Shown: positions 6,772-59,782, counted from the first letter of the stretch. The stretch is 64,000 bases of DNA from Halostagnicola sp. A-GB9-2 (GCF_030068615.1 NZ_JASJOC010000005.1:62001-126000); one strand, 5' to 3'. Numbers and translations are program-made. The notes: generated from the sequence alone by a model not told the origin.

Positions 6772-9700
6772 ATGAGCGAGTCGGACGATGGCCGAACGAG
6801 CGGATCGGATGCGGACGGCTTCGATCTGACGCGGCGAGAACTCGGTGCGGCCGCCGTGGGCGTCGCCGGGGCGTCCGGGTTAGGACTGCTCGGCCTTCGT
6901 CGACTCACGAGCGACACCGACGAAGAGGACGACGGTCCCATGAATCCATTCGAAGAGTACCCTAACCAGGGGTGGGAAGAGCACTACCGCGACGTGTGGG
7001 AACCCGACGACTCCTACATGCTCACGTGTACGCCCAACGACACCCACAACTGTTACCTCGAGGCGTCGATCAAGAACGGCGAGATCACTCGCCTCGGTCC
7101 CTCGATGAACTACGGCGAGGCGACCGATCTCGAGGGGAACGAGGCGACCCAGCGCTGGGATCCGCGGGTCTGTAACAAGGGGCTGGCGATGATCGAGCGC
7201 TTCTACAGCGAACGCCGAGTGAAAGACCCGATGGTCCGGGAAGGGTTCATGGAGTGGGTCGAAGACGGCTTCCCGCGGGACGACGACGGCTCCATGCCCG
7301 AAGCGTACGCCAACCGCGGCGAGGACGACTTCATCCGCGTCGACCACGAGGCGGCCTACGACCTCGCTGCGCGGACGTTCCTCGAACTCACCGAGTTCTA
7401 CAGCGGCGAGTCGGGGATGCAGTCCCTCCTCGAGCAAGAGTACGACGAGCGCGTCGTCGAACAGACTCAGGGCGCGGGTGTTCGTTCGATGAAGTTCCGG
7501 GGCGGGATGCCCCTACTCGGGGTCATCAAGCTCTGGGGGCAGTACCGCAACGCGAACTCGATGTCACTGTTGGACAACTACGTCCGTGACGTCGACGAAG
7601 ACGAGGCACTCGGCGCGGTCGGGCTCGACAACTACTCGTTTCACACCGACCTGCCGCCGGGCCACACGATGGTCACCGGCCAGCAGACGGTCGACTTCGA
7701 CCTCTCGAGCGTCGAGCAGGCCGACCACGTCGTCGTCGCCGGGCTCAACTTTTTGACGACGAAGATGGCCGACTGTCACTGGTTGACCGAGGCCCGACTG
7801 AAAGGGACGAAGGTTACGGGAATCTTCACCGACTACAACGCGACCGCCTCGAAGTGCGACGAACTGATTACCGTCAGACCCGCCACCGACTCGGCGCTGT
7901 TCCTCGGCGCGGCACGCGTGCTCATCGAGGAGGAACTGTACGACGAGGACTTCGTCCGTCGGTACACCGACCTCCCCCTGCTGGTCCGCATGGACACCAA
8001 CGAGATGCTTCGCGCGAGCGACGTCTTCGAGGGCTACGAGCCCGGGGAGTTGGAGAAGACCCGAACCGTCAACGGTGACGCTGGCCGGCCGGATGCCGGC
8101 TCGCTCAACCTCGACGAACAGATCATTACCAAGGACTTGCGCGGCGAGTGGGGCGACTTCGTCGTCCGCGACGAGGAAAGCGGCGAGTTCGAAGCGGTTA
8201 CTCGAGATGACATCGGCGACGACTTCGACACGCAGGCGTCGCTCGAGGGTAGTTTCGAGGTCGAGCTCGCGGACGGCGCGAATTCGTCGGATTCGCAAAC
8301 GGCCGGCGAAGCCGGCGATGGAGAGACCGTCGAAGTCCGGCCGGTGTTCGACCTGATCAGCGAGCACTTGCTCGAGACCTACGACCTCGAGTCGGCCGCC
8401 GATGTCGTCGGGACGGACCCCCAGGCCGTCGAAAACTTGGCCCACGACTTCGCGGATAACCGGGAAGAGACCCTCGTGCTGACCGGTATGGGGCCGAACC
8501 ACTACACCAACGCGGACCAGAAGGACCGCGCGGTCTTCCTGCTGGCGTCGCTGACGCGAAACGTCGGCTATCAGACCGGCAACGTCGGAAGCTACTCTGG
8601 CAACTACCGCTCGGCGTACTTCAACGGGCTTCCGAACTATTCCGACGAAGACCCGTTCGACATCGAACTCGATCCGGACGAGCCAGCAAGTGTCGACCAG
8701 CGTTACGACGAACAGTCGGCGCACTTCTATACGAACTTAGACGAGCCCCTCGAGGTCGACGGCGAGTACTTCCAGGGCGACTCGCACATGCACACGCCGA
8801 CGAAGTCGCTGTGGGTGTCAGGGTCGAATTCGATCCTCGGCAATGCGAAGGGTGCGTACAAAATTATCGAGAAGATGCTTCGCACCGGGAAGATCGAGGC
8901 CTTCTTCACCAACGAATGGTGGTGGACGATGACCTGCGAGTACTCCGATATCGTCTTCCCGGTCGATTCGTGGGCCGAACACCACGTCAACGACATCACC
9001 GCCTCGGTCACCAACCCGTTTATTACGACGATGCCCGAAACTGGGATCGATCGGATCTACAACACCCGAAACGACGCCCAACATTACAAGGGCGTCGCCG
9101 CGGAGCTTGCGGAAATAACTGACGACGACCGATTCAACGACTACTGGGAGTTCATCGACGAAGACGACTACCAGGCGAAACCGTACCTCCAGCGGATCAT
9201 CGACAACTCGAACACCGTCTCCGGCTACGATGTCGATGAGCTACTCGAGGACGCTGAAGAAGGGACGCCGGCAATCATCATGACACGGAGTTATCCCAAG
9301 CGAGTCGGCAACGAGCAGATACAGGATGACGACCCGTGGTACACGAAATCGGGTCGCCTCGAGTTCTTCCGCGAGGAGGAGGAGTTCGCCGAAGCGGGCG
9401 AGAACATCCCGCTTCATCGAGAACCGATGGACGCGACGCCGTACGAGCCGAACGTCATCGTCGACGACAGCGACAGCCCCGTGATTGACCCGGAGACGCC
9501 CGAAGACCGGGGCTGGGATAGCGAGGCGAAAGTCCAGAGCACGAACGACCGACAGGTTCGCAACGTGATCAAGTCCCCGAGCGAACTGGTCGACAGCACG
9601 CACCCGCTGACCGACCTCGACGAGGGCTATGATTACGTCTACATGACGCCGAAGTACCGCCACGGGACCCACACCTTCGCGAACGCGCTCCCGAATATTG

Positions 9701-10386
9701 CGGTCTGGTGGGGCAACTACGGTGACATGGGTCGAAGAACGGAGCGAGATAGCTTCGACGAGCGAAAGCCCTACATCGGTGAGGGCTACATCGAGATGAA
9801 CCCTGAGGACGCCCGTTCGGAAGACCTTCAGGACGGCGACTACGTCTGGGTCGACGCCGACCCCTCCGACCGCCCGTACGAGGGCTGGAAGGAGGGAGAC
9901 GAAGACGGCGAGTACGCCCGTGCGATGATGCGGATTCGGTACCAGCCGAGCCTCCCCCAGGGTGTGACCAGGAGCTGGATGAACGTCAACCAGACGTCGC
10001 ACAAGACCTACGAGGCACAGCAAGAGCGCGAGGACGGAATGGCCAAAGCCGAGGACACGAGCTACGTTTCGCTCTATCGGAGCGGTGGCCACCAGTCCGC
10101 GACGACGACCTGGCTCCGCCGGACGTGGTTGACGGATTCGATGCCGCGGAAGGATCTCGGCGGGATGAATCTGAACGTCGGCTTCGAGCCCGACGTCCAC
10201 GCGGCAAACGGCGCGCCGAAGGAAGCCTTCGTCAAGATCGACAAGGCCGAAGACGGCGGCGTGAACGACAACGGCGAGCCCGAAGGCGCGTGGGAACCCG
10301 TCGACCGCGGGATCCGACCGACCCAGGAAGACGATACGATGGAAGACTACCTGAGCGGCGGCTTTGCGAGCGAGTCCGACGACTAA
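6772..10386 (+). CDS. Tat-exported molybdopterin oxidoreductase, catalytic subunit (NarG/type II-like)
   Basis: Length 1204 aa, in the size range of NarG-type DMSO-reductase-family subunits. A twin-arginine signal (LTRRELGAAAVGVAGASG, residues about 20-40) predicts export of the folded enzyme. The N-terminal Fe-S site region reads TCTPNDTHNCYLEA, with a later Cys in RVCNKGLAMIERF. This resembles archaeal NarG-like proteins rather than the bacterial HxxxCxxxC form. Cofactor-binding stretches include FTDYNATASKCDELITVRPA, GSNSILGNAKGAYK and MTPKYRHGTHTFANA. It is followed 17 bases later by the Fe-S subunit and then a chaperone, the A-B-D order of type II enzymes (nitrate, selenate, chlorate, dimethylsulfide, ethylbenzene). 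The electron acceptor or donor cannot be decided from the sequence. Nitrate or another oxyanion reductase is possible. Confidence 0.9.
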   Translation: MSESDDGRTSGSDADGFDLTRRELGAAAVGVAGASGLGLLGLRRLTSDTDEEDDGPMNPFEEYPNQGWEEHYRDVWEPDDSYMLTCTPNDTHNCYLEASIKNGEITRLGPSMNYGEATDLEGNEATQRWDPRVCNKGLAMIERFYSERRVKDPMVREGFMEWVEDGFPRDDDGSMPEAYANRGEDDFIRVDHEAAYDLAARTFLELTEFYSGESGMQSLLEQEYDERVVEQTQGAGVRSMKFRGGMPLLGVIKLWGQYRNANSMSLLDNYVRDVDEDEALGAVGLDNYSFHTDLPPGHTMVTGQQTVDFDLSSVEQADHVVVAGLNFLTTKMADCHWLTEARLKGTKVTGIFTDYNATASKCDELITVRPATDSALFLGAARVLIEEELYDEDFVRRYTDLPLLVRMDTNEMLRASDVFEGYEPGELEKTRTVNGDAGRPDAGSLNLDEQIITKDLRGEWGDFVVRDEESGEFEAVTRDDIGDDFDTQASLEGSFEVELADGANSSDSQTAGEAGDGETVEVRPVFDLISEHLLETYDLESAADVVGTDPQAVENLAHDFADNREETLVLTGMGPNHYTNADQKDRAVFLLASLTRNVGYQTGNVGSYSGNYRSAYFNGLPNYSDEDPFDIELDPDEPASVDQRYDEQSAHFYTNLDEPLEVDGEYFQGDSHMHTPTKSLWVSGSNSILGNAKGAYKIIEKMLRTGKIEAFFTNEWWWTMTCEYSDIVFPVDSWAEHHVNDITASVTNPFITTMPETGIDRIYNTRNDAQHYKGVAAELAEITDDDRFNDYWEFIDEDDYQAKPYLQRIIDNSNTVSGYDVDELLEDAEEGTPAIIMTRSYPKRVGNEQIQDDDPWYTKSGRLEFFREEEEFAEAGENIPLHREPMDATPYEPNVIVDDSDSPVIDPETPEDRGWDSEAKVQSTNDRQVRNVIKSPSELVDSTHPLTDLDEGYDYVYMTPKYRHGTHTFANALPNIAVWWGNYGDMGRRTERDSFDERKPYIGEGYIEMNPEDARSEDLQDGDYVWVDADPSDRPYEGWKEGDEDGEYARAMMRIRYQPSLPQGVTRSWMNVNQTSHKTYEAQQEREDGMAKAEDTSYVSLYRSGGHQSATTTWLRRTWLTDSMPRKDLGGMNLNVGFEPDVHAANGAPKEAFVKIDKAEDGGVNDNGEPEGAWEPVDRGIRPTQEDDTMEDYLSGGFASESDD

Positions 10387-10403
10387 CATCGAGGTGAATA
10401 CAA

Positions 10404-11603
10404 ATGGCGCAAGTCTACAATTGGCAGATCGGACGAGAAATGGAATTCCCGTACGCCGAGTCCCGACCGGATCGACAGTGGGGCGCGGTGTTCGATATCA
10501 ACAAGTGCATCGCGTGCCAGACGTGTACGATGTCGTGTAAGACGACCTGGACCCACGGCGAGGGCCAGGAGCACATGTTCTGGAACAACGTCGAGACGAA
10601 GCCCTACGGCGGTCACCCTATCGGCTGGGACAAGGAGATTTTGGATCAGCTCGGAACCCAGAACTGGGGTTCTGACGGCGTCTACGAGGGTGATACGATC
10701 TTCGAGGCCAACGACGTCGACTGGGACGACATGCTGATCGACGACGAGATCGCCAACCGACACGGCGAAGACATCGTCGGCTACCGTCCCGACGACGAAG
10801 ACTGGGCTCACCCGAATCTTGGCGAGGACGAACCCGCCGGTGAATCGTTCGAGTCGGACACGCACATCCCCGAAGACGAGCAGACCCACCCGATGTGGTT
10901 CTTCTACCTGCCTCGAGTGTGTAACCACTGTTCGTTCGCGGCGTGTGCCGGCGGGTGTCCGGTTCAGGCCGTCTACAAGCGAACCGAGGACGGGATCGTT
11001 CTCATCGACGAAGATAGTTGTCAGGCGGTCCAGGAGTGCGTCCGTGCCTGTCCCTACGGCAAGTCCGTGTTCAATCCCGCCGAAAGCAGATCCCAGAAGT
11101 GCGTCGGTTGCTACCCGAAAATCGAACAGGGGATGGTTCCGCAGTGTTTCGAAAACTGCCTCGGAAAGATCCGACAACACGGCTGGGTCAACCCGCCAGA
11201 GGAAGCCGATCCGGATAATCCGGTCGACTTCATGGTCCACGAGGCTGAGGTCGCCCTGCCGTTGTATCCGCAGTTAGGTCTCGAGCCGAACGTCTACTAC
11301 GTTCCGCCAACCAACGTCCCCACCGACTACCTCTTTCAGATGTTCGGGCCGGGCGTCGAGGAAGCCAAAGAGACCTACAGGGCGGCCCGCCGGGGCGACG
11401 AGGAACACCGCAAGCTACGCGGCCTCCTTCACCTGATGGGATCGACCGAGTGGCGCATCGAGCAGTTCGAGGTCACCGGCGACGAGGCGATCGGCTACGA
11501 CGAGAGCGGCTCGACCGTCGCTCGCGTCCCGATGGAGGAACCGACCTACGAGCGCGACCGATACGACGAAGATAACGACGTCTACCGCCTCGACGTCACG
11601 TAA
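10404..11603 (+). CDS. Four-cluster Fe-S subunit of the molybdoenzyme (NarH/DdhB-like)
   Basis: Length 399 aa. It contains four cysteine groups in NarH order: CIACQTCTMSC (about residues 33-43), CNHCSFAACAGGCP, CQAVQECVRACPYGK and CVGCYPKIEQGMVPQC with FENC. In the third group a Val sits where the second Cys would be (CQAV), the position occupied by Trp in NarH, so one centre is probably a [3Fe-4S] cluster. It would pass electrons between the molybdenum subunit and a membrane or soluble partner. It has no signal of its own and is probably co-exported with the Tat-bearing catalytic subunit. It belongs to the same operon as the genes on either side. Confidence 0.92.
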   Translation: MAQVYNWQIGREMEFPYAESRPDRQWGAVFDINKCIACQTCTMSCKTTWTHGEGQEHMFWNNVETKPYGGHPIGWDKEILDQLGTQNWGSDGVYEGDTIFEANDVDWDDMLIDDEIANRHGEDIVGYRPDDEDWAHPNLGEDEPAGESFESDTHIPEDEQTHPMWFFYLPRVCNHCSFAACAGGCPVQAVYKRTEDGIVLIDEDSCQAVQECVRACPYGKSVFNPAESRSQKCVGCYPKIEQGMVPQCFENCLGKIRQHGWVNPPEEADPDNPVDFMVHEAEVALPLYPQLGLEPNVYYVPPTNVPTDYLFQMFGPGVEEAKETYRAARRGDEEHRKLRGLLHLMGSTEWRIEQFEVTGDEAIGYDESGSTVARVPMEEPTYERDRYDEDNDVYRLDVT

Positions 11604-22481: not shown

Positions 22482-23332
22482 CGTTCGATCACGACATAAC
22501 GTTCGAATCAATTACTCGCCTTTTCGACTCATCTCGAGGAAACTGATTGGTCGATCGAAGATTCGACCGCCGGTGAAAGCGCGTGAACCGTCTCGGGGTC
22601 AAGTGGTTCGAGGCGCAAAACGTCTCGTCATCGATCGAGACCTTCGGTCTCGCGGAGTCTGGCGGGACGAAGTTCGCTGACCTTTCGGGAGCGCAGCTCC
22701 CGCTTAGCTTCGCTCAGTCACGGTACTCAAAAAATTCCGTACAATCCCGCGGCGAACCCGGCCTGCTCCACCTGTAGAATTCGTGCTCGATTTCGTCGTC
22801 ATCGTCCGTCCCTGAGCGGCCGGCGTCCGGGCGAACCGAGTCGGGCCGCTTGTCGTCCGGAGCCACTTCTCAGTACGGTGACGGCCTCGTGTCGCAAGGG
22901 ACGTAGTCAGACTGACACCTCCCGTGGTAACTCAAATGGACGGGCTGGTCGACGACCGGAGCGGATTGAGGAGAGTTGTCCGAACACGTTGGGACGCTTC
23001 CATACAGCTGGACTGTAGGAAAAGGCGTTGGTGAATCGACAGACAGTGATAGGTTGGTTGGTTCTAGTAGGCTGTGACGGAGTCCAATGGCTCCGCAATC
23101 GTGGATTCGACTAGGATTGTGGGTAAATCGTCCCAGAGTAGCACCTCAAGTCACCCGATTTCCCAAAAAGTCGATGTCTTCTAGTGATTCACCAGAGCCG
23201 TTGATTTGGAACGGCGGATGGGGCCGCCGTCCCGTTTCCGGTACCGGAATCTCGAGTACACTCAGCGGAACTCCCCAAATACGTAATTCGCCAGCCTATG
23301 CTTTTCACCCGTTGAAACTGACTCTCTGGTTG
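22482..23332. other. Long gap with hairpin and possible gene remnants
   Basis: About 850 bases without a convincing intact gene. A hairpin CGGGAG (22686-22691) and CTCCCG (22697-22702) with a 5-base loop is visible. On the minus strand 22907-23098 has a protein-like frame (RFTNAFSYSPAVWKRPNVFG) that I could not assign. A frame open upstream of the hydrolase start (from 23087) shows no conserved content. Confidence 0.35.
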
Positions 23333-24667
23333 ATGACGCGTATCGCTCTCGTCGTACTCGACACGCTACGAAAAGATGCGTTCGATCAGCATTTTTCGTG
23401 GTTGCCCGGTCGGCGTTTCGAACAGGCGTGGTCGACCGCGAAGTGGACGATGCCCGCCCACGCCTCGCTGTTTACGGGAACGTACGCGAGCGAAGCGGGC
23501 GCAAACGCCAACTCGGAAGGGTTGGATCGACCCGAACCGGTACTCGCTGAACTCCTCTCCCGTGCTGAATACACGCCTCGGGCATTCAGCGCGAATCTCA
23601 TGGTTTCGCCGGTTTTCGGGTTCGATCGCGGATTTGACTCGTTCGAGGGGACGTGGCGCGTTAATGTCAATAGCAAAGGTATAACGGGGTGGCGAGAACT
23701 CTTCCAGAACAGTCATTCCGGTGCAAAGAAGTACGCGACGATAGCAAAAGGGATGACGGCCGGCTGGTATCGAATCCTCCCTTCGATCAAAACCGGACTC
23801 GCACAGCGCTTGACTGACCGGTACGTGAGAACTCTCTTTGAACAGCCTCACCGAGATGACGGAGCGGCGCCACTGCTAAGATCCCTCCAACAGAACCGAT
23901 ACGCCGACGCGGATTTTCTTTTCGTGAATTTGATGGAGGCGCACGCACCGTACGATCCCCCGGAATCGTATCGAACGACCGAAGACGCATCGTATGACGA
24001 GGTTGCCGCGACGCTGACCGACGACGAGCCGGACGGGCGATTGGTTCGCGGTGCGTACAACGATTCGGTCCGGTATCTCGCCGATCAGTACGAACGAATT
24101 TTCGCGGAACTACAGCGGCGTTTCGATTACGTCATCACGCTCAGTGACCACGGTGAACTCTTCGGCGAGCACGGGAGCTGGCGTCACTTACACGGTGTGT
24201 ACCCGGAGTTGACCCGGATCCCGATCGTGATCTCTGGTGAGGGATTATCCGGGGCATGCTCGAAGACGGTAAGTCTCCTCGATGTCCATCGGACGATCCT
24301 CGACCTGCTCAATGTCGAGGCTGTCTCCCGTGGACAAAATCTGCTCGGCACGATCGACGATCGATTTTATCTCGTCGAGTACGAAGGGCTCCGAGCCGCT
24401 CGCCTCGAGAAGATGCGCGATCGGTACCCCGACGAGTTGGTCAGGTCGTACGACCGACCACTGAACGGTCTCGCGGGACCAAACGAGTATTACGGCTATC
24501 AAACGCTCGAGGGGTGGGAAGAGCGGGGATCTTCGACTGCGGAAAATCCACCGCTCCTTCTGCGGGAACTGGCCGCTTCGATCACACGCAGGGACGAAGA
24601 CCGGCAGTCCAGCGTACCCGTCTCGGAGGACGTACGAGCGAGATTAGAGGATCTCGGCTACGCGTGA
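23333..24667 (+). CDS. Sulfatase/alkaline-phosphatase superfamily hydrolase
   Basis: From the ATG at 23333 the protein is 444 aa and starts directly with the metal-site strand IALVVLDTLRKDAF. The frame extends upstream to 23087 but that part looks non-coding. The nucleophile region reads KWTMPAHASLFTGTY, with Thr at the position of the Cys/Ser of true sulfatases. The second metal site is VITLSDHGELFGEHGSWRH. A Thr nucleophile is typical of LtaS/OpgB-type phosphotransferases, so a phosphodiesterase or phosphotransferase role acting on surface polymers is as likely as sulfate ester hydrolysis. No signal peptide is visible, so it may be cytoplasmic. Confidence 0.8.
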   Translation: MTRIALVVLDTLRKDAFDQHFSWLPGRRFEQAWSTAKWTMPAHASLFTGTYASEAGANANSEGLDRPEPVLAELLSRAEYTPRAFSANLMVSPVFGFDRGFDSFEGTWRVNVNSKGITGWRELFQNSHSGAKKYATIAKGMTAGWYRILPSIKTGLAQRLTDRYVRTLFEQPHRDDGAAPLLRSLQQNRYADADFLFVNLMEAHAPYDPPESYRTTEDASYDEVAATLTDDEPDGRLVRGAYNDSVRYLADQYERIFAELQRRFDYVITLSDHGELFGEHGSWRHLHGVYPELTRIPIVISGEGLSGACSKTVSLLDVHRTILDLLNVEAVSRGQNLLGTIDDRFYLVEYEGLRAARLEKMRDRYPDELVRSYDRPLNGLAGPNEYYGYQTLEGWEERGSSTAENPPLLLRELAASITRRDEDRQSSVPVSEDVRARLEDLGYA

Positions 24668-25164: not shown

Positions 25165-26286
25165 ATGTCGCCATCAGCTGAGAACGACGCTCCCGCGGGA
25201 AAAACGAGGGTTGAGGACGCCCTCGAGCGCTATCTGACCAGCCTCTCTGCGGGCGGATCGCGAAACACCCTCGAGTGGGTGCTCCAACGCGGCGAGGAGT
25301 CCTTTCGATCGTATCTCGAGGAAAACGGCATCGAACACGTCGACGAAATCGATACCGCGTGCTGTCGCGACTGGGGGATGGAACTTCGCACCCGGACCGC
25401 TCAGGACGAAATTGCCGCCTCGACCGCCCATAACTACTACATGTACACGCGCGCGTTCCTCTCGTTTTGCGTTCGGGATCAGCTTCTCGAGACGAATCCC
25501 GCCGCGACCGACGCCGCTCGAGAATTTTTACCGGAGGATACGGGAAAGCGCGATCGCCAGTTCTGGGATGAAGACACTCGAGAGGCGCTTCTGTCGTTCG
25601 TTCACGCCAGAGTAGACCGCGCGTACGACGACGATAAGATCGATCTCGAGCGCGCCTACCGGGACCGCGCGTTCGTCATCTTGCTCGCACTCGCCGGCCT
25701 CCGAGGTGCGGAGGCGTTTGCCGACCCCCACGACGACCAACGGAACGGACTCACATGGGAGGACGTCGAACTGGACGACGAGCGCGGACGTGTGACCGTA
25801 CTCGGGAAATCCCGCCAGTACGAACGGGTTGGTCTACCAGCGCGCGCGAAAGATGCACTCGAACGGCACCGGGCCATCCTCGAGCCGCCATCGGACGAGT
25901 GGCCCGTGTTTCCAACGGGTCATTACCCCTCGAAACGACGGGCCCTCGAGGCCGAGTATTCTTCGGATCGAGTGGAGACGATGCTCGAGGACCGCTCGAC
26001 CGACGAGGCGCTCCGAGAGTTCGAGGTTCCGCCGCCGTCTCTCTCGAAAAACGGAGCTCGGAGCGTGATGAAGCGCCTTTGTGCGGAAGCAAATCTCGAG
26101 ATCGACGGCGAGTACCTAAAGCCCCACGGCGGACGGCGCGGCCTCGGTCACGAACTGTACGCGAGCGGCAACTCGGAACTCGCACAGTCAGCACTGCGAC
26201 ACAAATCAATCGAGACGACCCACGAAGCTTACAGTGATATTCAGCCCGAAGACGTTGCAGAGCAGATCGACGACGTGATGGACTAG
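25165..26286 (+). CDS. Tyrosine recombinase (XerC/D- or integrase-like)
   Basis: Length 373 aa. An N-terminal SAM-like core-binding domain (about residues 15-110) is followed by the catalytic domain. The catalytic set is visible: Arg in LALAGLRGAEAF, Lys region in VTVLGKSRQYERVGLP, HxxR in LKPHGGRRGLGHELY, His in ALRHKSIETTHEAYSD and Tyr in the same segment. All key residues are present, so it is probably active. No adjacent tRNA or phage genes were seen. It may therefore be a chromosomal Xer-like or resident recombinase rather than a phage integrase. The palindrome just upstream is a possible target or operator. Confidence 0.87.
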   Translation: MSPSAENDAPAGKTRVEDALERYLTSLSAGGSRNTLEWVLQRGEESFRSYLEENGIEHVDEIDTACCRDWGMELRTRTAQDEIAASTAHNYYMYTRAFLSFCVRDQLLETNPAATDAAREFLPEDTGKRDRQFWDEDTREALLSFVHARVDRAYDDDKIDLERAYRDRAFVILLALAGLRGAEAFADPHDDQRNGLTWEDVELDDERGRVTVLGKSRQYERVGLPARAKDALERHRAILEPPSDEWPVFPTGHYPSKRRALEAEYSSDRVETMLEDRSTDEALREFEVPPPSLSKNGARSVMKRLCAEANLEIDGEYLKPHGGRRGLGHELYASGNSELAQSALRHKSIETTHEAYSDIQPEDVAEQIDDVMD

Positions 26287-28558: not shown

Positions 28559-30520
28559 ATGAGTCACACTCACGGGGTGATCCGTGCAGACGGTTCGTTG
28601 ACGGTCTCGACGCTCGAGGAGTGGGTTGAGTCCGATGACGGGGTCCAGTATACGACCGACAACGTGGCCATTGAGTCGGATCCACACAACTGCCAGTTCG
28701 CGAGTCGGCCTGCTAGGGGGAAAACCAATGCGGTTCGGTGCTGGGTGATCGGCGACGTATACGGGTACGATACGACTTCGGACGATCGCTCCGGCGAGTA
28801 CCAACCACGTCCTCCTGATACCAACGCGGCGCAGTTTTGCGTTTCATTATACGAACGGTACGGATTGGACTTCGTCAGCCGTCTCAACGGCAATTTCACG
28901 CTTCTGGTTTACGACCGGCAAAGTCAGGAGATCTCGATGTGTACCGATCGGTTCGGAACGGTCCCGATCTACCGAACCGAGACGGATGATGGCGCGATCG
29001 TGTTCGCGACGAACATCCAGCTTCTGCCGTCTCACCCGGCGGTTGAGACCTCCTTCCATACCGGGTACCTGCACGAATATCTCGCCTTTCGACGAACGTT
29101 TGGCGTCAAAACGCCGCTTGAAGGTATCGAGAAGCTCGAGCCGGGGTCGATTACGACGATTTCGCTGGTCGATGGGAGCCGGACGGCCGAACAGTACTGG
29201 CGTCCGCGGTACCAGCCGCGAGATGAGCCCTTCGAGTGGTTCGTCGAAGAGTTCACGGACCGATTCCAGACGATTGTAGACGAGTGGACGCGTGACGGCC
29301 ACGAGTACGGCGTGTTGCTTTCGGGCGGGAGCGATTCTCGCCTCGTTCTGTCCACTCTCGAGGATGCGACAGCCTTTCACATGAACGATTGGAAGAATCG
29401 TGAAGCTCGTATCGCTGAGCGAGTCGCCACGGAGGCAGATGCGGACTTCGAACTTCTCGAGCGGGGGCCACAATACCGGATTGGTGCGCTCGAACGCAAC
29501 CGGTGGGCGAGTTCGTTCAACGGGTGGTTTACGCAGCCGTATACCGGCGGGTTCGAAGATCAGATTACGAATCGGGTCGACGGCCTTTTATCGGGACTGT
29601 ACGGTGATTCGCTTTTCGGGGGATACAGTATTCCGTCTCCGTCGGTTTCACTCGGCCCGCTCGGGTCGATGACGATCCCGTTCGAGCGATCTATTCAAAC
29701 CGTTGATGAGTATGTCGACCTCCTGGTTGAGGACGCCCACGACGGCTTCGATATGCAGACGGACCTCCGTACGGTGCTTAACGCAAACATCTCCCGAGAG
29801 GGAGACCGGATCGTCCATCACGGCGTCACCTACGAGTCGCTCGACGAACTCGTCTACTACGGCGACTGCTACCCGTTATCGAACGACGACGACATGCGCT
29901 TTCGAACGGCACTTCGTCAACTGTTGCCCTACCGGTCGCCGTTTCTCGACAATCGGTTGCTCGAGCTTTCCCTGTCGATGCCGATCCGGTACCGCCTTCG
30001 GCGGAATCTGGTCGGCCAGGCAGTCGATCGACTCGCGCCCGATCTGGCGTTGATTCCACACGCGAGTACCGGTGTTGGACTTGCGAGGCCGTTCACGCTC
30101 GAATACGTGAGTAGCCATCTACACGAATTTTGGGACAAACACGTACGGACCCAGAAGCCACCAGAACCGTACCTGACCGATGGGCCCTGGTTGGATGATG
30201 CTGAACTGCTTCGGTCGTTCGGGTTTGCAAACGACGTCCTCGACGAACAGGAACCCCTCGCCGATGCACTGCCAGGTCCCGACGTGGATTCGATCCGCGA
30301 GGTCTATCGAGATCACCACCACGGTTCGAACAACGTGGTCGAATTATACACGCTATTGACGGTTCTAACGATGCCAGTAACAGAACACGTACTCAGTACC
30401 GAGGCGAACACAGCACTGACCGAGACGAGCACGGAACAGATCGTGACGAACGCAGAGCAGAGCGAGACGACCGCAACACCGACTCTGGCTCTCGAAAACG
30501 AGGTGATCGACGTTGTCTGA
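28559..30520 (+). CDS. Asparagine-synthetase-like protein lacking the glutaminase Cys
   Basis: Length 653 aa. Residues 1-210 correspond to the Ntn glutaminase domain (LNGNFTLLVYDRQSQEISMC, DRFGTVPIY). The mature Cys2 nucleophile is missing: the protein starts MSHTHG. The synthetase domain from about 225 retains the PP-loop GVLLSGGSDSR (residues 251-261) and the LYGDSLFGGY motif. So it can probably adenylate a carboxylate but would use ammonia or an amine instead of glutamine. Similar proteins close amide or lactam bonds in natural products or act near surface glycans. The next gene, an ATP-grasp ligase, overlaps it by 8 bases, which suggests the two form one pathway. The C-terminal 60 residues are a Thr/Glu-rich tail. 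Confidence 0.85.
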   Translation: MSHTHGVIRADGSLTVSTLEEWVESDDGVQYTTDNVAIESDPHNCQFASRPARGKTNAVRCWVIGDVYGYDTTSDDRSGEYQPRPPDTNAAQFCVSLYERYGLDFVSRLNGNFTLLVYDRQSQEISMCTDRFGTVPIYRTETDDGAIVFATNIQLLPSHPAVETSFHTGYLHEYLAFRRTFGVKTPLEGIEKLEPGSITTISLVDGSRTAEQYWRPRYQPRDEPFEWFVEEFTDRFQTIVDEWTRDGHEYGVLLSGGSDSRLVLSTLEDATAFHMNDWKNREARIAERVATEADADFELLERGPQYRIGALERNRWASSFNGWFTQPYTGGFEDQITNRVDGLLSGLYGDSLFGGYSIPSPSVSLGPLGSMTIPFERSIQTVDEYVDLLVEDAHDGFDMQTDLRTVLNANISREGDRIVHHGVTYESLDELVYYGDCYPLSNDDDMRFRTALRQLLPYRSPFLDNRLLELSLSMPIRYRLRRNLVGQAVDRLAPDLALIPHASTGVGLARPFTLEYVSSHLHEFWDKHVRTQKPPEPYLTDGPWLDDAELLRSFGFANDVLDEQEPLADALPGPDVDSIREVYRDHHHGSNNVVELYTLLTVLTMPVTEHVLSTEANTALTETSTEQIVTNAEQSETTATPTLALENEVIDVV

Positions 30521-31715
30521 CGTCCGTGATTCGGTCGTCATTACCGCTTCGAGGTATCCCCACGGCTACGCGTCGGTCCGTTCGCTCGCCGATCGGGACG
30601 TTCGGACGATAGTCGCAGTTGACAATCCCGGCCTTAGCGTCACCACCTCTCGCTTTTGCGACGAGTCGGTGCTTATTCCGCCGCCGAGCAATCTCCCGGC
30701 GTACAAGGACGCGTTGTTGGGTCTCGCCGCCCGGCAGGACGTTCGAACGATCGTTCCACACCGGCCCCACGATACGTACCTGCTCTCGAAGTACGCCGCA
30801 GAGTTCGAGCGACACATCGACGTCGTCGTTCCCCAACTCGAGACGCTGAAATCCGTCCACGATCGCAAGCGCCTCGCGGACGCCGCAGAACGCGCAGACG
30901 TGGCAATTCCGGAGACGAAACTGCTCGGCGACGTCGAGGACTGGAGTGGCGAACAGATCGTCAAGTCCCGGTACAACGTCCTCACCGACGAGTATCTCGA
31001 GGACTTCAAACTCGAGGATTCGAAAATCGCCAAATCCGTCGAACACGTTTCGGCCGGCGAAACGCCGGATACGGCCGCACTCACCGATGACATGTCCCAC
31101 GAACCAATCGTTCAGGAGTACATCGAGGGGAGCGACGAGTACGTCTTCGGCGCACTCTACGATCATGGGGAGGCCCTCGGAACTTTCCAGCACCGCCAGA
31201 TCCGCGGCGATTCCTACACCGGTAGCGGCGGCGTTTACCGCGAGTCGGTCGACATTCAGGCGCTCGAGGAGGCCGGTCGAGCGATCCTCGACGAACTCGA
31301 GTGGCACGGCCTCGCCTGCATCGAGTACATCGAAGACGCCGAGACGGGGGAGTTCAGTATCGTCGAGATCAACCCTCGAATGTGGCAATCGCTCGCGTGT
31401 GCGACGCGAGCGGGCGCCGACTTCCCCTATTGGTACGTGCTTCAGGTTGGAAATCGTCAGGACCTGATCGATCCTGACTACGAAACCGGCGTCGGAACGC
31501 ATTATCTGTTCGGAGAACTGGAGCACCTCGTGAGCGTCGTCCGGGAGGACTCGCCGTTCGTCGAGCGACCGTCCTTGCCTAGGCGGACGGCTGAAATCTC
31601 GCGTTCGTGTCTCGCAACTTCGAACTTCGACTATCTCCATCTGGACGATCCGCGACCGATCGTTCGGCAGATACAAACTGAACTCGAAGGGGCGGTAAGA
31701 AAGCGGCTTAGCTGA
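30513..31715 (+). CDS. ATP-grasp carboxylate-amine ligase
   Basis: Length 400 aa from a TTG at 30513 that overlaps the stop of the upstream gene. The N-terminal Rossmann-like domain starts DSVVITASRYPHGYASVRSL. The ATP-grasp core has KSVHDRKRLADAAERADVAI, QEYIEGSDEYVFGALYDHGE and the metal-binding FSIVEINPRMWQSL. These ligases join a carboxylate to an amine, thiol or imine through an acyl phosphate. No standard purine, pyrimidine or amino-acid synthesis version fits. Tight overlap with the AsnB-like gene suggests two successive amide-forming steps on an unknown small molecule, peptide or glycan. Confidence 0.85.
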   Translation: MSDVRDSVVITASRYPHGYASVRSLADRDVRTIVAVDNPGLSVTTSRFCDESVLIPPPSNLPAYKDALLGLAARQDVRTIVPHRPHDTYLLSKYAAEFERHIDVVVPQLETLKSVHDRKRLADAAERADVAIPETKLLGDVEDWSGEQIVKSRYNVLTDEYLEDFKLEDSKIAKSVEHVSAGETPDTAALTDDMSHEPIVQEYIEGSDEYVFGALYDHGEALGTFQHRQIRGDSYTGSGGVYRESVDIQALEEAGRAILDELEWHGLACIEYIEDAETGEFSIVEINPRMWQSLACATRAGADFPYWYVLQVGNRQDLIDPDYETGVGTHYLFGELEHLVSVVREDSPFVERPSLPRRTAEISRSCLATSNFDYLHLDDPRPIVRQIQTELEGAVRKRLS

Positions 31716-31749: not shown

Positions 31750-32580
31750 TTACCGTTCGGCTGGCACGGCTTCGGACGGGGAATCGTCGTCACTCTCGTC
31801 GTATTCGACGATGGTATCGCCGTCGATGAACTTTTTCGTCCGTTCCTTTTCGGGGTTCTGGAAGAACGTTTGAACGTCGTTTTCCTCGATTACTTCGCCG
31901 AGGTAGAGGAACACGACGTCGTCAGCGATGCGTTGTGCTTGTTCCATGCTGTGTGTGACCATGATAATCGTGTACTCCTCCTTGAGGTCGACGAGCGTCT
32001 CCTCGACGGATTCGGCCGAAATCGGATCCAGCGCAGACGTGACCTCGTCACACAGGAGAACGTCGGGTTCGACGGCCAACGAACGGGCGAGACAGAGCCG
32101 TTGTATCTGGCCGGTAGATAGTTCTGCACCGGGTGTTTCGAGTCGATCCTCGACTTCGTCCCAGAGGTTTACCTTTTGCAGGTAGGACTCGACGAGGGCG
32201 TCGAGCTCGTTCTTCGAATCGTACTCGCCGTGGAGTTTCACCCCGTAGGCGACGTTTTCGTAGATCGATAGCGGCAACGCCGTCGGCGTCTGCGGGACGT
32301 AACCGATCCGTTTTCGAAGCTTTGGAACTGGTTCATCGGTGTTGTAGACCGATTGATCCCCCAGATGGACGTCACCGGAGATTTCGACGTTGGGTTGTAT
32401 CTCGTGGAGTCGGTTCAGCGACTTTAGCAACGTCGATTTCCCGCAGCCGGAGGGGCCGATTATGGCCGACAGCTGATTTGCGGAAAAATCGATACTGACG
32501 CCTTTCAGCGCCTCTACTTCGCGGTCTCCGACGTACGTTACGGAGAGATCTTTCGTGGTGAGTGCAGTGTTCGTTGTCAT
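31750..32580 (-). CDS. pstB: Phosphate ABC transporter ATPase, system 1
   Basis: Length 276 aa. Walker A is [20 protein letters not shown], the signature is LSTGQIQRLCLARSLA (a T in place of the usual G of LSGGQ), and Walker B is VLLCDEVTSALD. The switch His is MVTHSMEQAQRIADD. PstB hydrolyses ATP to drive phosphate uptake. The ATG overlaps the pstA stop (ATGA), and it is the last gene of a four-gene pstS-C-A-B operon without phoU. Confidence 0.93.
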   Translation of the reverse strand: MTTNTALTTKDLSVTYVGDREVEALKGVSIDFSANQLSAIIGPSGCGKSTLLKSLNRLHEIQPNVEISGDVHLGDQSVYNTDEPVPKLRKRIGYVPQTPTALPLSIYENVAYGVKLHGEYDSKNELDALVESYLQKVNLWDEVEDRLETPGAELSTGQIQRLCLARSLAVEPDVLLCDEVTSALDPISAESVEETLVDLKEEYTIIMVTHSMEQAQRIADDVVFLYLGEVIEENDVQTFFQNPEKERTKKFIDGDTIVEYDESDDDSPSEAVPAER

Positions 32581-33437
32581 GAGTGACGACCTCCTGGTGC
32601 GTACCGGGCGTATCGCCCGGCCAGTAGTTTCGAGACGAGTATCAGCCCCAGTACGGCGATGATCAGGATGAACGATGCCGCGTAGGCGTGAGAACGGACC
32701 TCGGCGTTGAACGACATCGCCTGATCGAAGATGAGTACGGGGAGCGTCGTCGCCCCGTCGAAGGGACCCGCCGGCATATTGGTACTTCGGCCGGCGGTGA
32801 AAAGGACCGTGGCGGCGTCGCCGATTCCGCGGGCAAAGCCCATGACGATCCCGGCGATGACTCCCGGAAGCGCCGCACGTGCGGTCATCAGGGCAGTCTC
32901 GAACCGTGTCGCCCCGAGTCCGTACGTGGCTTCCTTTACGGAGTCCGGTGCGGATCGCAACGCTTCGTCCGTGTAGCGGGTCATAATCGGGTACTGGAAG
33001 ATCGCGATTGCGACGATTCCGAAGAACATCGACGTCCGGGCACCGATCGCGATGATCACTGTCAGGACGAAGACACCGTAGACGATCGGCGGCGTCCCCC
33101 AGAGTACGTTCAGGAACATGTTTACGGTGTCCGAAAACCGCTCACTCGAGTAATCGCTCTGGAGATAGATCGCCGTCGAAACGGCGAGCACTGCCGAGAT
33201 GATCGTCGCGGGTCCGACGATGAAGATACTCCCGAGAACAGCGTGGAGGAATCCGCCGTCGCCCTCGAGCATGTATCGGGAACCCGGCGGCGTGATGACG
33301 ATTGTCGGATCCATGAGGAAAACGCGTCCCCCTCTGTAGATCGTCACGCTGATCACGAGCACCATCACGGCGACGACGAGGGCGGCCGCACCGCGTGCGA
33401 GCAAGCCAAAGAGTCGTTGTTCGGTGTATCGATCCAT
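32577..33437 (-). CDS. pstA: Phosphate ABC transporter permease PstA, system 1
   Basis: From the ATG at 33437 the protein is 286 aa. Six membrane segments and the permease coupling loop TYGLGATRFETALMTARAAL with LPGVIAGIVMGFARGIGDAA are visible, typical of PstA. The ATG overlaps the pstC stop by one base (taATG), a coupled start. It pairs with PstC to form the membrane channel. Confidence 0.93.
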   Translation of the reverse strand: MDRYTEQRLFGLLARGAAALVVAVMVLVISVTIYRGGRVFLMDPTIVITPPGSRYMLEGDGGFLHAVLGSIFIVGPATIISAVLAVSTAIYLQSDYSSERFSDTVNMFLNVLWGTPPIVYGVFVLTVIIAIGARTSMFFGIVAIAIFQYPIMTRYTDEALRSAPDSVKEATYGLGATRFETALMTARAALPGVIAGIVMGFARGIGDAATVLFTAGRSTNMPAGPFDGATTLPVLIFDQAMSFNAEVRSHAYAASFILIIAVLGLILVSKLLAGRYARYAPGGRHS

Positions 33438-34366
33438 TAGAACTGCCACCTCTGTTGAAGTCGCTGCCGGAGAATCATTGCGCTGAAGTTAAACAGCCAC
33501 ACGACGACGATGAGCATCAGTCCGACGAAGATTAGCGCGGATTGGGTGAGCGGCAGCGACATTAGCTCGCCGAAATCGTTGACGATCAGCGTCGGGAGCG
33601 TTTGTCCCGTCGCAAACGGTGAGCTCGGTAAGTGGGTCTGGCCGCCGATGAGCATCGCCGGGACGATAGTCGCGCCGAAAACGCGACCGAATCCCAGCAG
33701 TACGGCCGAAAAGATGCCGGGACCTGCGGCTCGTAACAGGACGATTCTGATCGTCTCCCACTTCGTCGCACCGACGCCGAGGGACGACTCGCGGAGTTCG
33801 TCCGGAAGCGCCTCGAGGGATTCGACGGACAACGAGATCATAAACGGCGTGACGACGATCGCCATCACGAGACTGACGGTGAAGATACCGAGCCCGGTCG
33901 CGCTCGAGCCGACCGCCGGCGCGAGATAGTCTCCGACGAACGGGACGACGACGATCAGTGCGACCAGACCGAAGATGACACTCGGGATCGCGGCGAGGAC
34001 GTCGATGAACGACGAAACGAGCGTCTTCGTTCTCCCCTCCGCGTATTCGGCGATGTAGATCGCTGCGAGAATCGCGATCGGCGTTCCCATAATCATCGTG
34101 AGCGCGGTCACGTATACTGTGCCTACGATGGCCGGTAAGAAGCCGAACTGGTTCTGTGCGGGATCCCAATTCGAGGACGTGAGCATCTGTACCAGCGAGT
34201 ACTCCGAAAGTAACGGGAGCGACTGGTAGAGCAACGCCAGAACGATCAGGGCAAACAGTACGATAGCGAAGTAGCCAGCCCCCTGAAGCCAGTACCCACT
34301 CACTCGTTCTGTGAGTAGGCGCCGACCGAGACGGTTTTGACTTCCTGAGTCCGTCGAACCCCCCAT
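33437..34366 (-). CDS. pstC: Phosphate ABC transporter permease PstC, system 1
   Basis: Length 309 aa with a short cytoplasmic N-terminus and six hydrophobic segments. The coupling loop reads SSLGVGATKWETIRIVLLRA and then LLGFGRVFGATI. The AIYIAEYAEGRTKTLVSSFI and PSVIFGLVAL segments are characteristic of PstC. It lies 8 bases after pstS. This locus is complete and appears intact, unlike the second system. Confidence 0.93.
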   Translation of the reverse strand: MGGSTDSGSQNRLGRRLLTERVSGYWLQGAGYFAIVLFALIVLALLYQSLPLLSEYSLVQMLTSSNWDPAQNQFGFLPAIVGTVYVTALTMIMGTPIAILAAIYIAEYAEGRTKTLVSSFIDVLAAIPSVIFGLVALIVVVPFVGDYLAPAVGSSATGLGIFTVSLVMAIVVTPFMISLSVESLEALPDELRESSLGVGATKWETIRIVLLRAAGPGIFSAVLLGFGRVFGATIVPAMLIGGQTHLPSSPFATGQTLPTLIVNDFGELMSLPLTQSALIFVGLMLIVVVWLFNFSAMILRQRLQQRWQF

Positions 34367-34374
34367 CGGTTAGG

Positions 34375-35352
34375 TTATGGCCCCTCGTTTAGGTCGTCCT
34401 GTGCTTCCTCGAGTCGCTCCTCTTCGAGCGGGACGTAGCCGTTGTCTCGGACGTACTGTTGACCTTCCGTAAGAACCCACTCGACGAAGTCGTGAGAGTC
34501 CTCGCCGAACTCACCGTTCGACGCGAGGAACATTTCCCGCGCCGGAGGTGCCGGATACGTTCCCGCTTCGACGGCGGCGAGGAATTCGTCGCGCGTCTCG
34601 TAGAAGTCCTCCTCTTCGGAGAGCCCTTCGCCATCGAGATCGAGCGGTACTGGACGGATGTCGCCCTCGAGTTCACCGGTATCGAGGTCGTAGACGTAGT
34701 TGATATTGTTCAGCGAGATTGCGTTCTCGTTGCCGGCGATGGCCTCGGCGACCGGCTGGTCACCGTTGTGGTTTCCGTCCGAGAGACTCTCGAGTTCGTT
34801 CTCGGTGTAGGCATCGTCTTCGCCGCCGAGGAAGTCGCCCCACTGTTTGTACGCGGCGGATGCATCCGACCGTCCGTAGACGGTAATTTCCTCGTCGACG
34901 TCGGCGTCGACGACCTCGCCCCAGTTCGTTACCTCCTTCGTGAAGATATCCTCGAGATCCTCACGAGTGAGACCGTTTTCCTGAAGCTCGTCGATGACCG
35001 GGTTGTCGGCGTTGACGGTGCCGACGACGGTGTCGATGAGCATCGGAACGGCGAACAGGCCGTCCTCGATTTCCTCCGGTTCAGGCTCGCGGCCCATCAT
35101 GGCGATGTCGACTTGATCGTTGGTGACGTCCGAGACGCCGACACCAGTTCCGCCCCCCGAAATATCGAACGAGGTCTCCGTTTCGTTTTCGTAGATATCT
35201 GCCCACACTTCGACCATCGGAAGCGGTCCGACCCCACCCGAGATCCGAACCGTATCGCTTGCGCCGAGGAAAGACGTACAACCGGCGAGTGAAATCGCTG
35301 AACTGACACCTACGAGTTGCAACGCAGACCGACGTGAATAGGTACGTTCCAT
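34375..35352 (-). CDS. pstS: Phosphate-binding lipoprotein PstS, system 1
   Basis: Length 325 aa. The N-terminus has a twin-arginine signal with lipobox (YSRRSALQLVGVSSAISLAG followed by Cys), so the protein is membrane-anchored outside the cell. The phosphate-binding pattern appears as ISGGVGPLPMVEVWADIYE, FDISGGGTGVGVSDV and YGRSDASAAYKQW. This PstS is only distantly similar to the one at 58716, so the two systems may differ in affinity or regulation. Repeats upstream (35487-35534) may be its control region. Confidence 0.9.
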   Translation of the reverse strand: MERTYSRRSALQLVGVSSAISLAGCTSFLGASDTVRISGGVGPLPMVEVWADIYENETETSFDISGGGTGVGVSDVTNDQVDIAMMGREPEPEEIEDGLFAVPMLIDTVVGTVNADNPVIDELQENGLTREDLEDIFTKEVTNWGEVVDADVDEEITVYGRSDASAAYKQWGDFLGGEDDAYTENELESLSDGNHNGDQPVAEAIAGNENAISLNNINYVYDLDTGELEGDIRPVPLDLDGEGLSEEEDFYETRDEFLAAVEAGTYPAPPAREMFLASNGEFGEDSHDFVEWVLTEGQQYVRDNGYVPLEEERLEEAQDDLNEGP

Positions 35353-41810: not shown

Positions 41811-42959
41811 TTAGATGTCGCTCGGATCGGTCAGGTCGACGCCGTTCGCCTCGTGTGTCACAATAATGTCGTGCCAGTGGGTCGCGTAATCGATCTCTGT
41901 GAACTGGCCGCGACCGTCGAACTCTTCTGCGAGTTCGGTATCGGAGTAATCGTATTCGAGGAACGCCCGTTCGATGCCCTCCTGAACGTCCGACGGGAGG
42001 TTGTAGAGATACGAGAATCCGGTGGTGACGATCGGTTCGCTCTGCCAGACGACTTTGATGTGCTCGGGGTCGACGTCGCCCCGATCGGCGACTCGAGTCA
42101 CACAGTAACTACAGACCGGCGCGACCTCGTGATCTTGATTGTAAATCGAGAGGACGAGGTTTTCGTGGCTCCCGATGTGTTCGACATCGTAATCCTCGCC
42201 GGGCTCGACGCCGAACTGGTCGTCGAACATTGCTCGAGGCATGAGGTTGCCGGAGTTCGAGGACTGGTCGCCGTGTGCGCCGTCGCGGCCGGCGAAGTCC
42301 TCCACGGAGTCGATGTCGGTATTGTTCATGTGGGTGATCGCCCACAGGAAGTAGCCAGCGTCGTCTTCGGAGACCTGGATGCCGAACGGAACCGCGCCCG
42401 CGAGGTTGACCGCAAACGGGAGCGGACCGGTCGAAAAGCCGCCGATGTGGAGCTGTTCGCTCCGCATCGCTTCGACCTGTGCCGCGTAACTTTCGACCAT
42501 ATTGGTCTCGACGTCTCGACCGGTCTCCTCCTCGATGTTTTCCATGATCGGGTCGAAAACACCCTCGTACTGGGCCGGGTCCTCCGTCGGCGTCATCGCG
42601 AACAGGAGCGTATCCGGGTCGATAATTTCGCTGTCGTCTGTGGGCGGGCTTCGAACGGGGTCGCCGTAGACGGGTTCGTCGCGTTCCTCGAACGCCTCGA
42701 TATCCTCGACCGATCCGTTATCGTAGTCCATCAGCGTGGACATCCGCTGCGGGAATTCCGGACTCTCCGGATCCCAGTCCGGGAAGTCCTCGTCTGCATC
42801 GTCCGGAATGTCGTCGTCCGTATCGCTCAAACACCCCGCCAATGCTCCCGTCACCGCCCCACCGGCACCTGCTAAGAGCGTTCGCCGACAGACCCGACAG
42901 CAGGAAGTCTTCCGCTTTGCACCATCTGCGTCGCCGTCCGTTCCGAATTCGTCGGACAT
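41811..42959 (-). CDS. phnD: Phosphonate-binding lipoprotein
   Basis: From the ATG at 42959 the protein is 382 aa. The N-terminus is cysteine-rich (TSCCRVCRR) and then has a Tat-type lipobox ([19 protein letters not shown]). The binding domain carries PhnD features: [40 protein letters not shown]-like sequence, [20 protein letters not shown] and [20 protein letters not shown]. It captures phosphonate or a related organophosphorus compound outside the cell. Its promoter region is the AT-rich stretch at 42990-43010. Confidence 0.92.
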
Positions 42960-42996
42960 CGTCGGTTGATCCAACCGAGAGAACGGGTAAAAGCCG

Positions 42997-55272: not shown

Positions 55273-55932
55273 TCAGTATATCAACTCGTCGTCGTTTTCG
55301 ACCATGTACAGCGTCCGTGCGGCGATATTCACGGCGTGATCACCTACCCGCTCGAGATCGCGAACGGTCAGTAACATTCGGGAAACGTCGTCGAGGTTCG
55401 CCTGGCTTCCCGCCTCCGTCTCGAGCAGATCCTGAACGACGACTTCGCTGGCACGTTCACAGAGCGCATCGATTTCGTCGTCTGCCCCGGCAATTTCTCC
55501 CGTCGCCGCGGCGTCGTCGGTCGCGTACGCCGCCATCGCCGCTTCGACCATCTCGACGGTTTCGCCGCCGATATACGCGATGTCGATATCCGGATACCGG
55601 TCTCGTTCGGCCCGTTTCGTATACTCGCCCAGATTGACGGCGAGGTCGCCGATCCGCTCGAGGTCCGTGATGATCTTGAACGACGCGGCGATGAACCGGA
55701 GATCTCCCGCCACCGGTTGCTGGAGCGCGAGCAGGTCGATGCAGTCTTGTTCGAGCTCGAGATACAGGTCGTTGATCTCGTGGTCGCTCGTGATTATCTC
55801 CTCGGCGAGTTGCTCGTCTTTGCGCTCGAGTGCCTCGAGTGCTCGTCGTAGCCGTTCGCAGACGATGTTGCTCATCTCGAGGACGTCTTCTCGGAGCTGC
55901 TCGAGTTGTCGCTGATAGTCGTTTCGTGACAT
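55273..55932 (-). CDS. phoU: PhoU phosphate-uptake regulator
   Basis: Length 219 aa. It has two PhoU helical-bundle repeats with the duplicated metal-cluster motif: FIAASFKIITDLERIGDLAV in the first half and MLLTVRDLERVGDHAVNIAA in the second. PhoU restrains the Pst transporter at high phosphate and links uptake to signalling. It lies 18 bases past the second pstB as the last gene of the pstSCAB-phoU operon. Confidence 0.95.
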   Translation of the reverse strand: MSRNDYQRQLEQLREDVLEMSNIVCERLRRALEALERKDEQLAEEIITSDHEINDLYLELEQDCIDLLALQQPVAGDLRFIAASFKIITDLERIGDLAVNLGEYTKRAERDRYPDIDIAYIGGETVEMVEAAMAAYATDDAAATGEIAGADDEIDALCERASEVVVQDLLETEAGSQANLDDVSRMLLTVRDLERVGDHAVNIAARTLYMVENDDELIY

Positions 55933-55950
55933 GATTGTATCCGGTTACGA

Positions 55951-56810
55951 TCAGCCGAACTTGCCGGTGATGTAATCCTCAACGCGGTCGTGCTCTGGAT
56001 TCTCGAAAATCTTCGTCGTATCGTCGAACTCGACGAGGTTTCCCCCAGTCAGGAAGACGGCGGTCTTGTCCGAAATTCGCGCCGCCTGTTGCATGTTGTG
56101 GGTGACGATAACGACGGTGTACTCCTCGGCGAGGTCGGCAATGAGATCCTCGACTTTCGAGGTCGCAACTGGATCCAGCGCCGAGGCCGGTTCGTCCATC
56201 AAGAGGACTTCCGGGTCGGGTGCGATCGCTCGGGCGATACAGAGTCGTTGCTGTTGCCCGCCCGAGAGGTCGAGCCCACTCGAGTCGAGTTGATCCTTCA
56301 CTTCGTCCCAGAGCGCTGCGCCGCGAAGTGCCCGTTCGACTTCTTCGTCAAGGTCGATTTCGTCGTCGATTCCCTGAACCCGAAGCCCGTAGGAGACGTT
56401 GTCGTAGATCGATTTTGGGAACGGGTTTGGCTTCTGGAACACCATTCCGATCTTCCGTCGCAATGCGACGGGATCGACATCCTCGTCGTAGACGTTCTTG
56501 CCGTGGAAAGACAGGTCGCCGTCGATGCGACAGGCGTCGATCTGATCGTTCATTCGGTTGATCGATCGCAAGAACGTCGACTTCCCGCAGCCTGACGGAC
56601 CGATTATCGCCGTTACACGGTTTTCCGGAATCTCGATATCGATGTTGTCGAGCGCCTGTCCTCGCCGTAGTAGACATCGAGGTCATCTGCGGTTATGACG
56701 GGCTTCTCGAGACGTCTATCTCGGTCGGTCTCGGACGGCTGGATATCCGTCGTAATGAGCGTACTATCCTCCGACTCCGTTGACGCGTCTTGTTTCTGGT
56801 CTATGGACAT
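55951..56810 (-). pseudogene. pstB: Phosphate ABC transporter ATPase, system 2, with a frameshift
   Basis: The ATG at 56810 (MSIDQKQDASTESEDSTLIT) starts one frame that reaches [10 protein letters not shown]. The PstB sequence then continues in another frame as [20 protein letters not shown] and [17 protein letters not shown] and on to a normal C-terminus ending at 55951. One C seems missing at about 56657-56659 (GAGGACAGG instead of GAGGACCAGG). Walker [28 protein letters not shown] and the switch HNMQQAAR are intact. It is either a true frameshift or an assembly error. A downstream start at 56571 would lack Walker A. Confidence 0.75.
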
Positions 56811-56811
56811 G

Positions 56812-58700: not shown

Positions 58701-58715
58701 CGTATGCTACCGCTA

Positions 58716-59759: not shown

Positions 59760-59782
59760 CACCTAAGTGATTTTGTGGACTG

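Follow-up and report, generated by a model that had tools for sequence, protein, structure and literature searches.

What do two haloarchaeal genes produce together when one of them encodes an asparagine synthetase homolog without the glutaminase cysteine and the other, which overlaps it, encodes an ATP-grasp ligase? This question is raised by positions 28559 to 31715 of the 64,000-nucleotide stretch of Halostagnicola sp. A-GB9-2 DNA that was analyzed here and that will be called the window. The pair comprises the following features:

28559..30520, plus strand: AsnB-like amide ligase (named AsnB1 from now on), 653 amino acids, without Cys2; ATG start, matched by Pfam Asn_synthase and GATase_7
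28739..29026, plus strand: degenerate class II glutaminase-like (Ntn) domain of AsnB1, residues 61-156, identified by the GATase_7 match
29321..29341, plus strand: PP-loop SGGSDSR of AsnB1, residues 255-261, ATP-pyrophosphatase motif, intact
29591..29608, plus strand: SGLYGD motif of AsnB1, residues 345-350, identified by alignment and motif tally
30500..30508, plus strand: Shine-Dalgarno sequence GAGGTGATC within the last AsnB1 codons, 4 nt 5' of the ligase TTG
30513..30520, plus strand: 8-base overlap TTGTCTGA, from the start codon TTG to the stop codon TGA, shared by both open reading frames
30513..31715, plus strand: ATP-grasp carboxylate-amine ligase, 400 amino acids; TTG start
30963..31373, plus strand: span of the ATP-grasp catalytic residues K151, K174, E202, E285 and N287, conserved to at least 90% in the ligase alignment

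The arrangement of the two genes was compared among the orthologous loci. The stretch GAGGTGATC corresponds to the consensus Shine-Dalgarno sequence and is a near-perfect complement of the 3' end of archaeal 16S rRNA; an SD-like stretch was found at the equivalent site in most orthologs of the pair. Of the 17 pair loci 13 share an overlap of 8 bases and three, all from Haloterrigena, have one of 11 bases; one draft genome (L068) contains an ambiguous base at this site. The start codon of the orthologous ligases is either TTG or ATG. Given this recurrence, the overlap does not reflect chance. AsnB1 and the ligase form a conserved unit that is translationally coupled, not fused. An earlier interpretation of this DNA (the sequence-only reading) had described the genes as translationally fused by an 8-base overlap, which is right for the overlap and wrong for the fusion.

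On the opposite strand a Pst-type phosphate ABC operon (31750-35352) begins 34 bases 3' of the pair. This adjacency is not kept with the pair in other genomes, and the operon looks unrelated to it. A second, separate Pst-like phosphate uptake gene set is located at 55273-59762, a gene for a phosphonate-type binding protein at 41811-42974 and a polyphosphate kinase gene at 51571-53817. According to these assignments, which come from domain matches and otherwise from gene position, the window contains a phosphate-handling region. Furthermore, a molybdopterin oxidoreductase and a 4Fe-4S subunit are encoded at 6772-11603 and resemble a respiratory reductase pair.

The N-terminus of AsnB1 reads MSHTHGV and Cys2 is missing. 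An in-frame TAA immediately 5' of the ATG rules out a longer N-terminus, so that no upstream start can supply the cysteine. Residue 2 is Ser, Arg, Met, Asn, Gly or Glu in the orthologs; being this variable across the pair clade, it is not a disguised nucleophile. None of 67 distinct AsnB1 homologs starts with MCG, and 32 of them start with MVG, in which Val takes the place of the Cys of the canonical MCG. Because MCG is absent from all 67, it is the whole haloarchaeal group, and not this gene alone, that gave up the glutaminase nucleophile. The GATase_7 match begins at profile position 26 with the first 25 positions absent, and the Cys was missing in every homolog examined.

The Pfam domain Asn_synthase (PF00733) was detected on residues 232-484 of AsnB1 with 50.4 bits (cut-off 21). 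In the alignment of AsnB1 homologs S255, G257, D259, S260 and R261 of the PP-loop are invariant, as is D350 of the SGLYGD motif. AsnB1 retains the SGGxDS PP-loop of asparagine synthetases and the Asp that follows it. The description of this protein as an AsnB homolog with a PP-loop and without the glutaminase Cys, already given by the sequence-only reading, is confirmed by SGGSDSR, by the N-terminal residues and by the TAA in front of the ATG. The roles of Glu348 in AsnB and Tyr348 in beta-lactam synthetase are established. According to a loop alignment that is short, this position is occupied by Leu347 in AsnB1, with Tyr348 adjoining it. Since Leu347 replaces the catalytic Glu or Tyr of the known AsnB-fold ligases, the exact chemistry of AsnB1 is uncertain. 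A predicted model of AsnB1 (pLDDT 64, pTM 0.66) superposed over residues 1-511 on TsnB9, beta-lactam synthetase and AsnB with Z-scores of 24-25 (against 1ct9: Z 24, rmsd 3.5, 378 residues aligned). The Pfam score above the cut-off and the predicted fold together place AsnB1 in the AsnB-fold superfamily.

The ligase contains the complete residue set of the ATP-grasp superfamily, that is, two ATP-binding Lys, the adenine-side Glu and the metal Glu/Asn. Its match to Pfam ATPgrasp_Ter was weak (29.1 bits, exactly at the cut-off) and its predicted model was poor (pLDDT 38.9), too poor to point to a substrate. The Haloterrigena orthologs are annotated as 'carboxylate--amine ligase'. Orthologs of the ligase are 70-80% identical, those of AsnB1 58-71%. 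No curated family model of NCBIfam covers either protein above its cut-off. The proposal of two ATP-dependent amide-forming enzymes in one unit was borne out by a conserved and coupled pair outside the curated family models.

The same-strand adjacent pair was found in 17 of 125 Natrialbaceae genomes, namely the window genome and 16 others. Seven of the nine genomes of the Natronococcus group carry it, and the other genera are Natronolimnohabitans, Natronorubrum, Haloterrigena and Saliphagus. Named hosts include Natronococcus jeotgali, Natronococcus amylolyticus, Natronococcus pandeyae and Natronorubrum bangense. The distance matrices of AsnB1 and the ligase correlate with r = 0.91 (0 of 5000 permutations as high), which shows joint inheritance of both genes. 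Thus, the co-occurrence for which the sequence-only reading had advised a search was found, with the pair kept together in 17 genomes. The third partner that the same reading had suggested, a small ORF or another gene, did not emerge: no conserved small ORF or precursor was detected in the 1.2 kb flanks on either side of the pair across genera, and no conserved third gene or tailoring partner was present among the pair loci. Its statement that neither a precursor nor a transporter is adjacent consequently holds for the precursor and fails for the transporter, given the Pst operon 34 bases away.

The genes flanking the pair vary between genus groups, and the neighbourhoods are unrelated. Homology of the 1.2 kb flanks was observed only among closely related genera, where it is due to unrelated housekeeping neighbours, and the flanks in the window match none of the others. 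Orthologs of the pair reside on the Haloterrigena plasmids pHTS220 and, in Haloterrigena turkmenica, pHTUR02, and an integrase-family recombinase is encoded at 25165-26286 of the window, approximately 2.3 kb upstream of the pair; together these make mobility of the locus possible. No relative of the pair was detected in viral contigs. The search for a link to defence gave no PADLOC match and a single PHROG match of unknown function.

Homologs of AsnB1 are distributed patchily and occur in 65 of 391 genomes of the class at E ≤ 1e-40. In the same 391 genomes all ligases with at least 62% identity, among the matches listed, adjoin an AsnB homolog: twelve on the same strand within the family and three in convergent orientation in other families. 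A fourth convergent case is located on a Haladaptatus plasmid. In the ligase tree the 18 AsnB-linked ligases (14 same-strand, 4 convergent) form one clade with a support of 100/100, and 0 of 28 unlinked paralogs fall inside it; this tree omits L149 (Halalkalicoccus jeotgali), a partial ligase match covering 46% of the query. When the AsnB homologs were placed in a tree, three of the four convergent partners fell on another branch, and the fourth (L145) has a long branch and an unsure placement. Judged from these trees, at least two AsnB lineages have supplied partners to the ligase clade, and the association arose or persisted more than once. The presence of AsnB partners from at least two lineages favours a functional bond over a shared positional accident.

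Relatives of both proteins were traced to surface-polysaccharide loci. Ligase-less relatives of AsnB1 adjoin genes for glycosyltransferases, sulfatases, epimerases, flippases and nucleotide-sugar enzymes. Some Natronococcus genomes contain a ligase-less second copy of AsnB1 that is nested in the pair clade and 64-66% identical (69% for one, G088), and three of the four loci seen lie beside polysaccharide genes. At four further loci (L148:13851-16542, L156:6314-8949, L157 and L159) the gene that follows a ligase-less AsnB1 homolog overlaps it by 4 bases and encodes a protein of the type I phosphodiesterase family. In at least two of these a FemAB/GNAT-like protein comes next, which constitutes an alternative partner set. 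Many ligase paralogs with 46-56% identity are likewise encoded in glycan clusters together with FemAB/GNAT-like proteins and flippases; the ligase family also includes single-copy paralogs in non-glycan settings. A plasmid-borne glycan locus of Haloferax mediterranei contains both a related ligase and an asparagine-synthase-related gene.

A second, very divergent AsnB-like protein (MNKELFGVFG..., SAGYDSR), termed ASN2, was found in the window genome:

L006:628-2322 = G000:C12:351501-353192, minus strand: ASN2, AsnB-like

Encoded by 84 of 125 genomes, ASN2 is near-core in the family; at nine loci elsewhere in haloarchaea it follows directly 3' of AsnB1 in tandem. Its surface-polysaccharide cluster, kept in the ten genomes examined, encodes GT2, GT4, DUF354 and DUF1616 proteins, a polysaccharide deacetylase and a flippase; a nucleotide-sugar dehydrogenase is added in the window genome and a sugar-transfer ATP-grasp protein in some genomes. 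All 17 pair genomes possess ASN2, compared with 67 of the 108 others (Fisher p = 0.0013, phylogeny not corrected). Because all 17 same-strand pair loci stand outside any glycan cluster, the link of the pair to glycans is one of homology and association only. A surface-glycan or asparagine pathway formed by the homologs had been named beforehand as an outcome that would speak against a new pathway. Glycan-cluster homologs do exist for both proteins, but a biochemically worked-out surface-polysaccharide pathway for these genes was not found in the open-access literature. A sulfatase family gene is located upstream of the pair in the window (23087-24667). Elsewhere, related sulfatase genes lie immediately upstream of AsnB homologs, but their identity is only 25-29%, and the gene is absent near other pair loci; it was rejected as a part of the unit.

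We propose, with about an even chance of being right, that the pair is an accessory two-enzyme module for amide formation (carboxylate amidation) on an acidic glycan or glycoconjugate of the haloarchaeal surface. The ligase would activate a carboxylate, probably that of an amino acid, as acyl-phosphate and join it to an amine. AsnB1 would convert a second carboxylate, for instance on a uronic acid or on the newly attached amino acid, into an acyl-AMP and condense it with an amine or with free ammonia that does not come from glutamine. Amidated and less acidic surface sugars would be the product. We infer the order of the steps, the substrates and the requirement for both enzymes to modify the same molecule. 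An extended version appears improbable to us: glutaminase-less AsnBs of two lineages would each have joined the same ligase clade, and an archaeal wall polymer, possibly the polyglutamine glycoconjugate in the case of Natronococcus, would first receive an amino acid by ligation and then be amidated with ammonia or an amine.

The sequence-only reading had favoured a small-molecule or peptide-tailoring pathway. With no conserved small ORF, no lasso leader peptidase and no conserved tailoring partner, such a pathway is possible and less favoured than decoration of a surface glycan. As a soluble product one may think of a compatible solute, that is, a dipeptide amide resembling N-acetylglutaminylglutamine amide (NAGGN), or of a halophile-specific metabolite, the ligase forming the peptide bond and AsnB1 amidating the end. 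The hosts inhabit extremely saline environments, the pair forms a solitary operon of the sort expected for a small metabolite, the NAGGN amidotransferase TIGR03104 is the highest-scoring NCBIfam model for AsnB1, and the two-step logic is the same as that of Ngg/AsnO (PMC8070244). However, the TIGR03104 score of 107.3 bits is far below the cut-off (570), AsnB1 lacks the glutaminase Cys while AsnO depends on glutamine, and the closest relatives of both genes are encoded in glycan clusters. Moreover, a search at E ≤ 0.01 gave no match between the ligase and the Ngg model, and no GNAT match was obtained in its 400 amino acids. A soluble product is therefore unlikely in our view. It is very improbable that the pair tailors a peptide or protein in a RiPP-like or lasso-like manner with a precursor encoded elsewhere. 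Lasso and macrolactam cyclases share the AsnB fold, and AsnB1 matched the models NF033535 (lasso cyclase) and NF033561 weakly. The former match scored 57.7 bits where the cut-off is 525, the transglutaminase-like lasso leader peptidase PF13471 had no match in the whole genome, and the 1.2 kb flanks lack a conserved small ORF across genera.

The cell wall polymer of Natronococcus occultus is a glycosylated polyglutamine (PMC4243693), and the pair could make or amidate this gamma-linked glutaminylglycan. Its presence in most genomes of the group with the named Natronococcus species fits this explanation, as does the absence of CapC, a part of poly-gamma-glutamate synthase, from all Natronococcus-group genomes despite the polymer in N. 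occultus. Nevertheless, Natronorubrum, Haloterrigena, Natronolimnohabitans, Saliphagus and the genus of the window, for which we know of no polymer of the glutaminylglycan type, carry the pair as well, and two Natronococcus-group genomes lack it. In addition, the occurrence of the pair is not associated with that of CapC (p = 1.0), and a chain-building polymerase is not expected to be so sporadic, which leaves this explanation highly doubtful. Extremely unlikely is ordinary asparagine metabolism, with AsnB1 as ammonia-dependent asparagine synthetase and the ligase as an unrelated passenger. The AsnB fold and the intact PP-loop would suit it, but AsnB1 scored 104.3 bits with TIGR01536 (glutamine-dependent asparagine synthetase; cut-off 267), the position of E348 is Leu, the distribution is patchy, and the ligase clade never occurs apart from an AsnB homolog.

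In the sampled genomes, AsnB-type genes that lack Cys2 are widespread, yet their annotation says no more than 'asparagine synthase-related', and metabolic models are misled by it. Most of the surface chemistry of haloarchaea has yet to be assigned, and the pair offers a compact two-gene target for finding the amidated substrate and the nitrogen source. Its value as a target lies in the conserved overlap, the single ligase clade and the swapped AsnB partners.

Among known systems, beta-lactam and carbapenam synthetases (1jgt, 1q15) share with AsnB1 the AsnB fold, a nucleophile-less glutaminase-like domain and the PP-loop (Z 22-24). The known enzymes of this type catalyze intramolecular lactam closure in bacterial secondary metabolism. 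Identity with beta-lactam synthetase was rejected for AsnB1 on the residue test, given Leu347 at the position of the catalytic Tyr348 in the short loop alignment. The 'asparagine synthase-related' genes of haloarchaeal polysaccharide clusters include the relatives of AsnB1 itself; the pair differs from them in its location outside such clusters and its tie to a dedicated ATP-grasp clade. NAGGN is synthesized in two steps by Ngg with AsnO (PMC8070244), likewise an operonic combination of an AsnB-type enzyme and a peptide-bond ligase. There, AsnO draws its nitrogen from glutamine and Ngg also N-acetylates, in contrast to a pair without Cys2 and without a GNAT part. In Lactococcus the ATP-grasp D-aspartate ligase AslA adds the amino acid of the peptidoglycan cross-bridge and AsnH amidates it (PMC4155827). 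Again an ATP-grasp ligase is combined with an AsnB-type enzyme, and in AslA/AsnH the two work one after the other on the same envelope precursor. The acceptor of that system is bacterial peptidoglycan, and to our knowledge archaea have no murein or peptidoglycan; furthermore, the archaeal genes form one overlapping operon, and their AsnB-type enzyme lacks the glutaminase Cys. The best reading of these likenesses is that the pair would be analogous to AslA/AsnH and to Ngg/AsnO and a member of neither.
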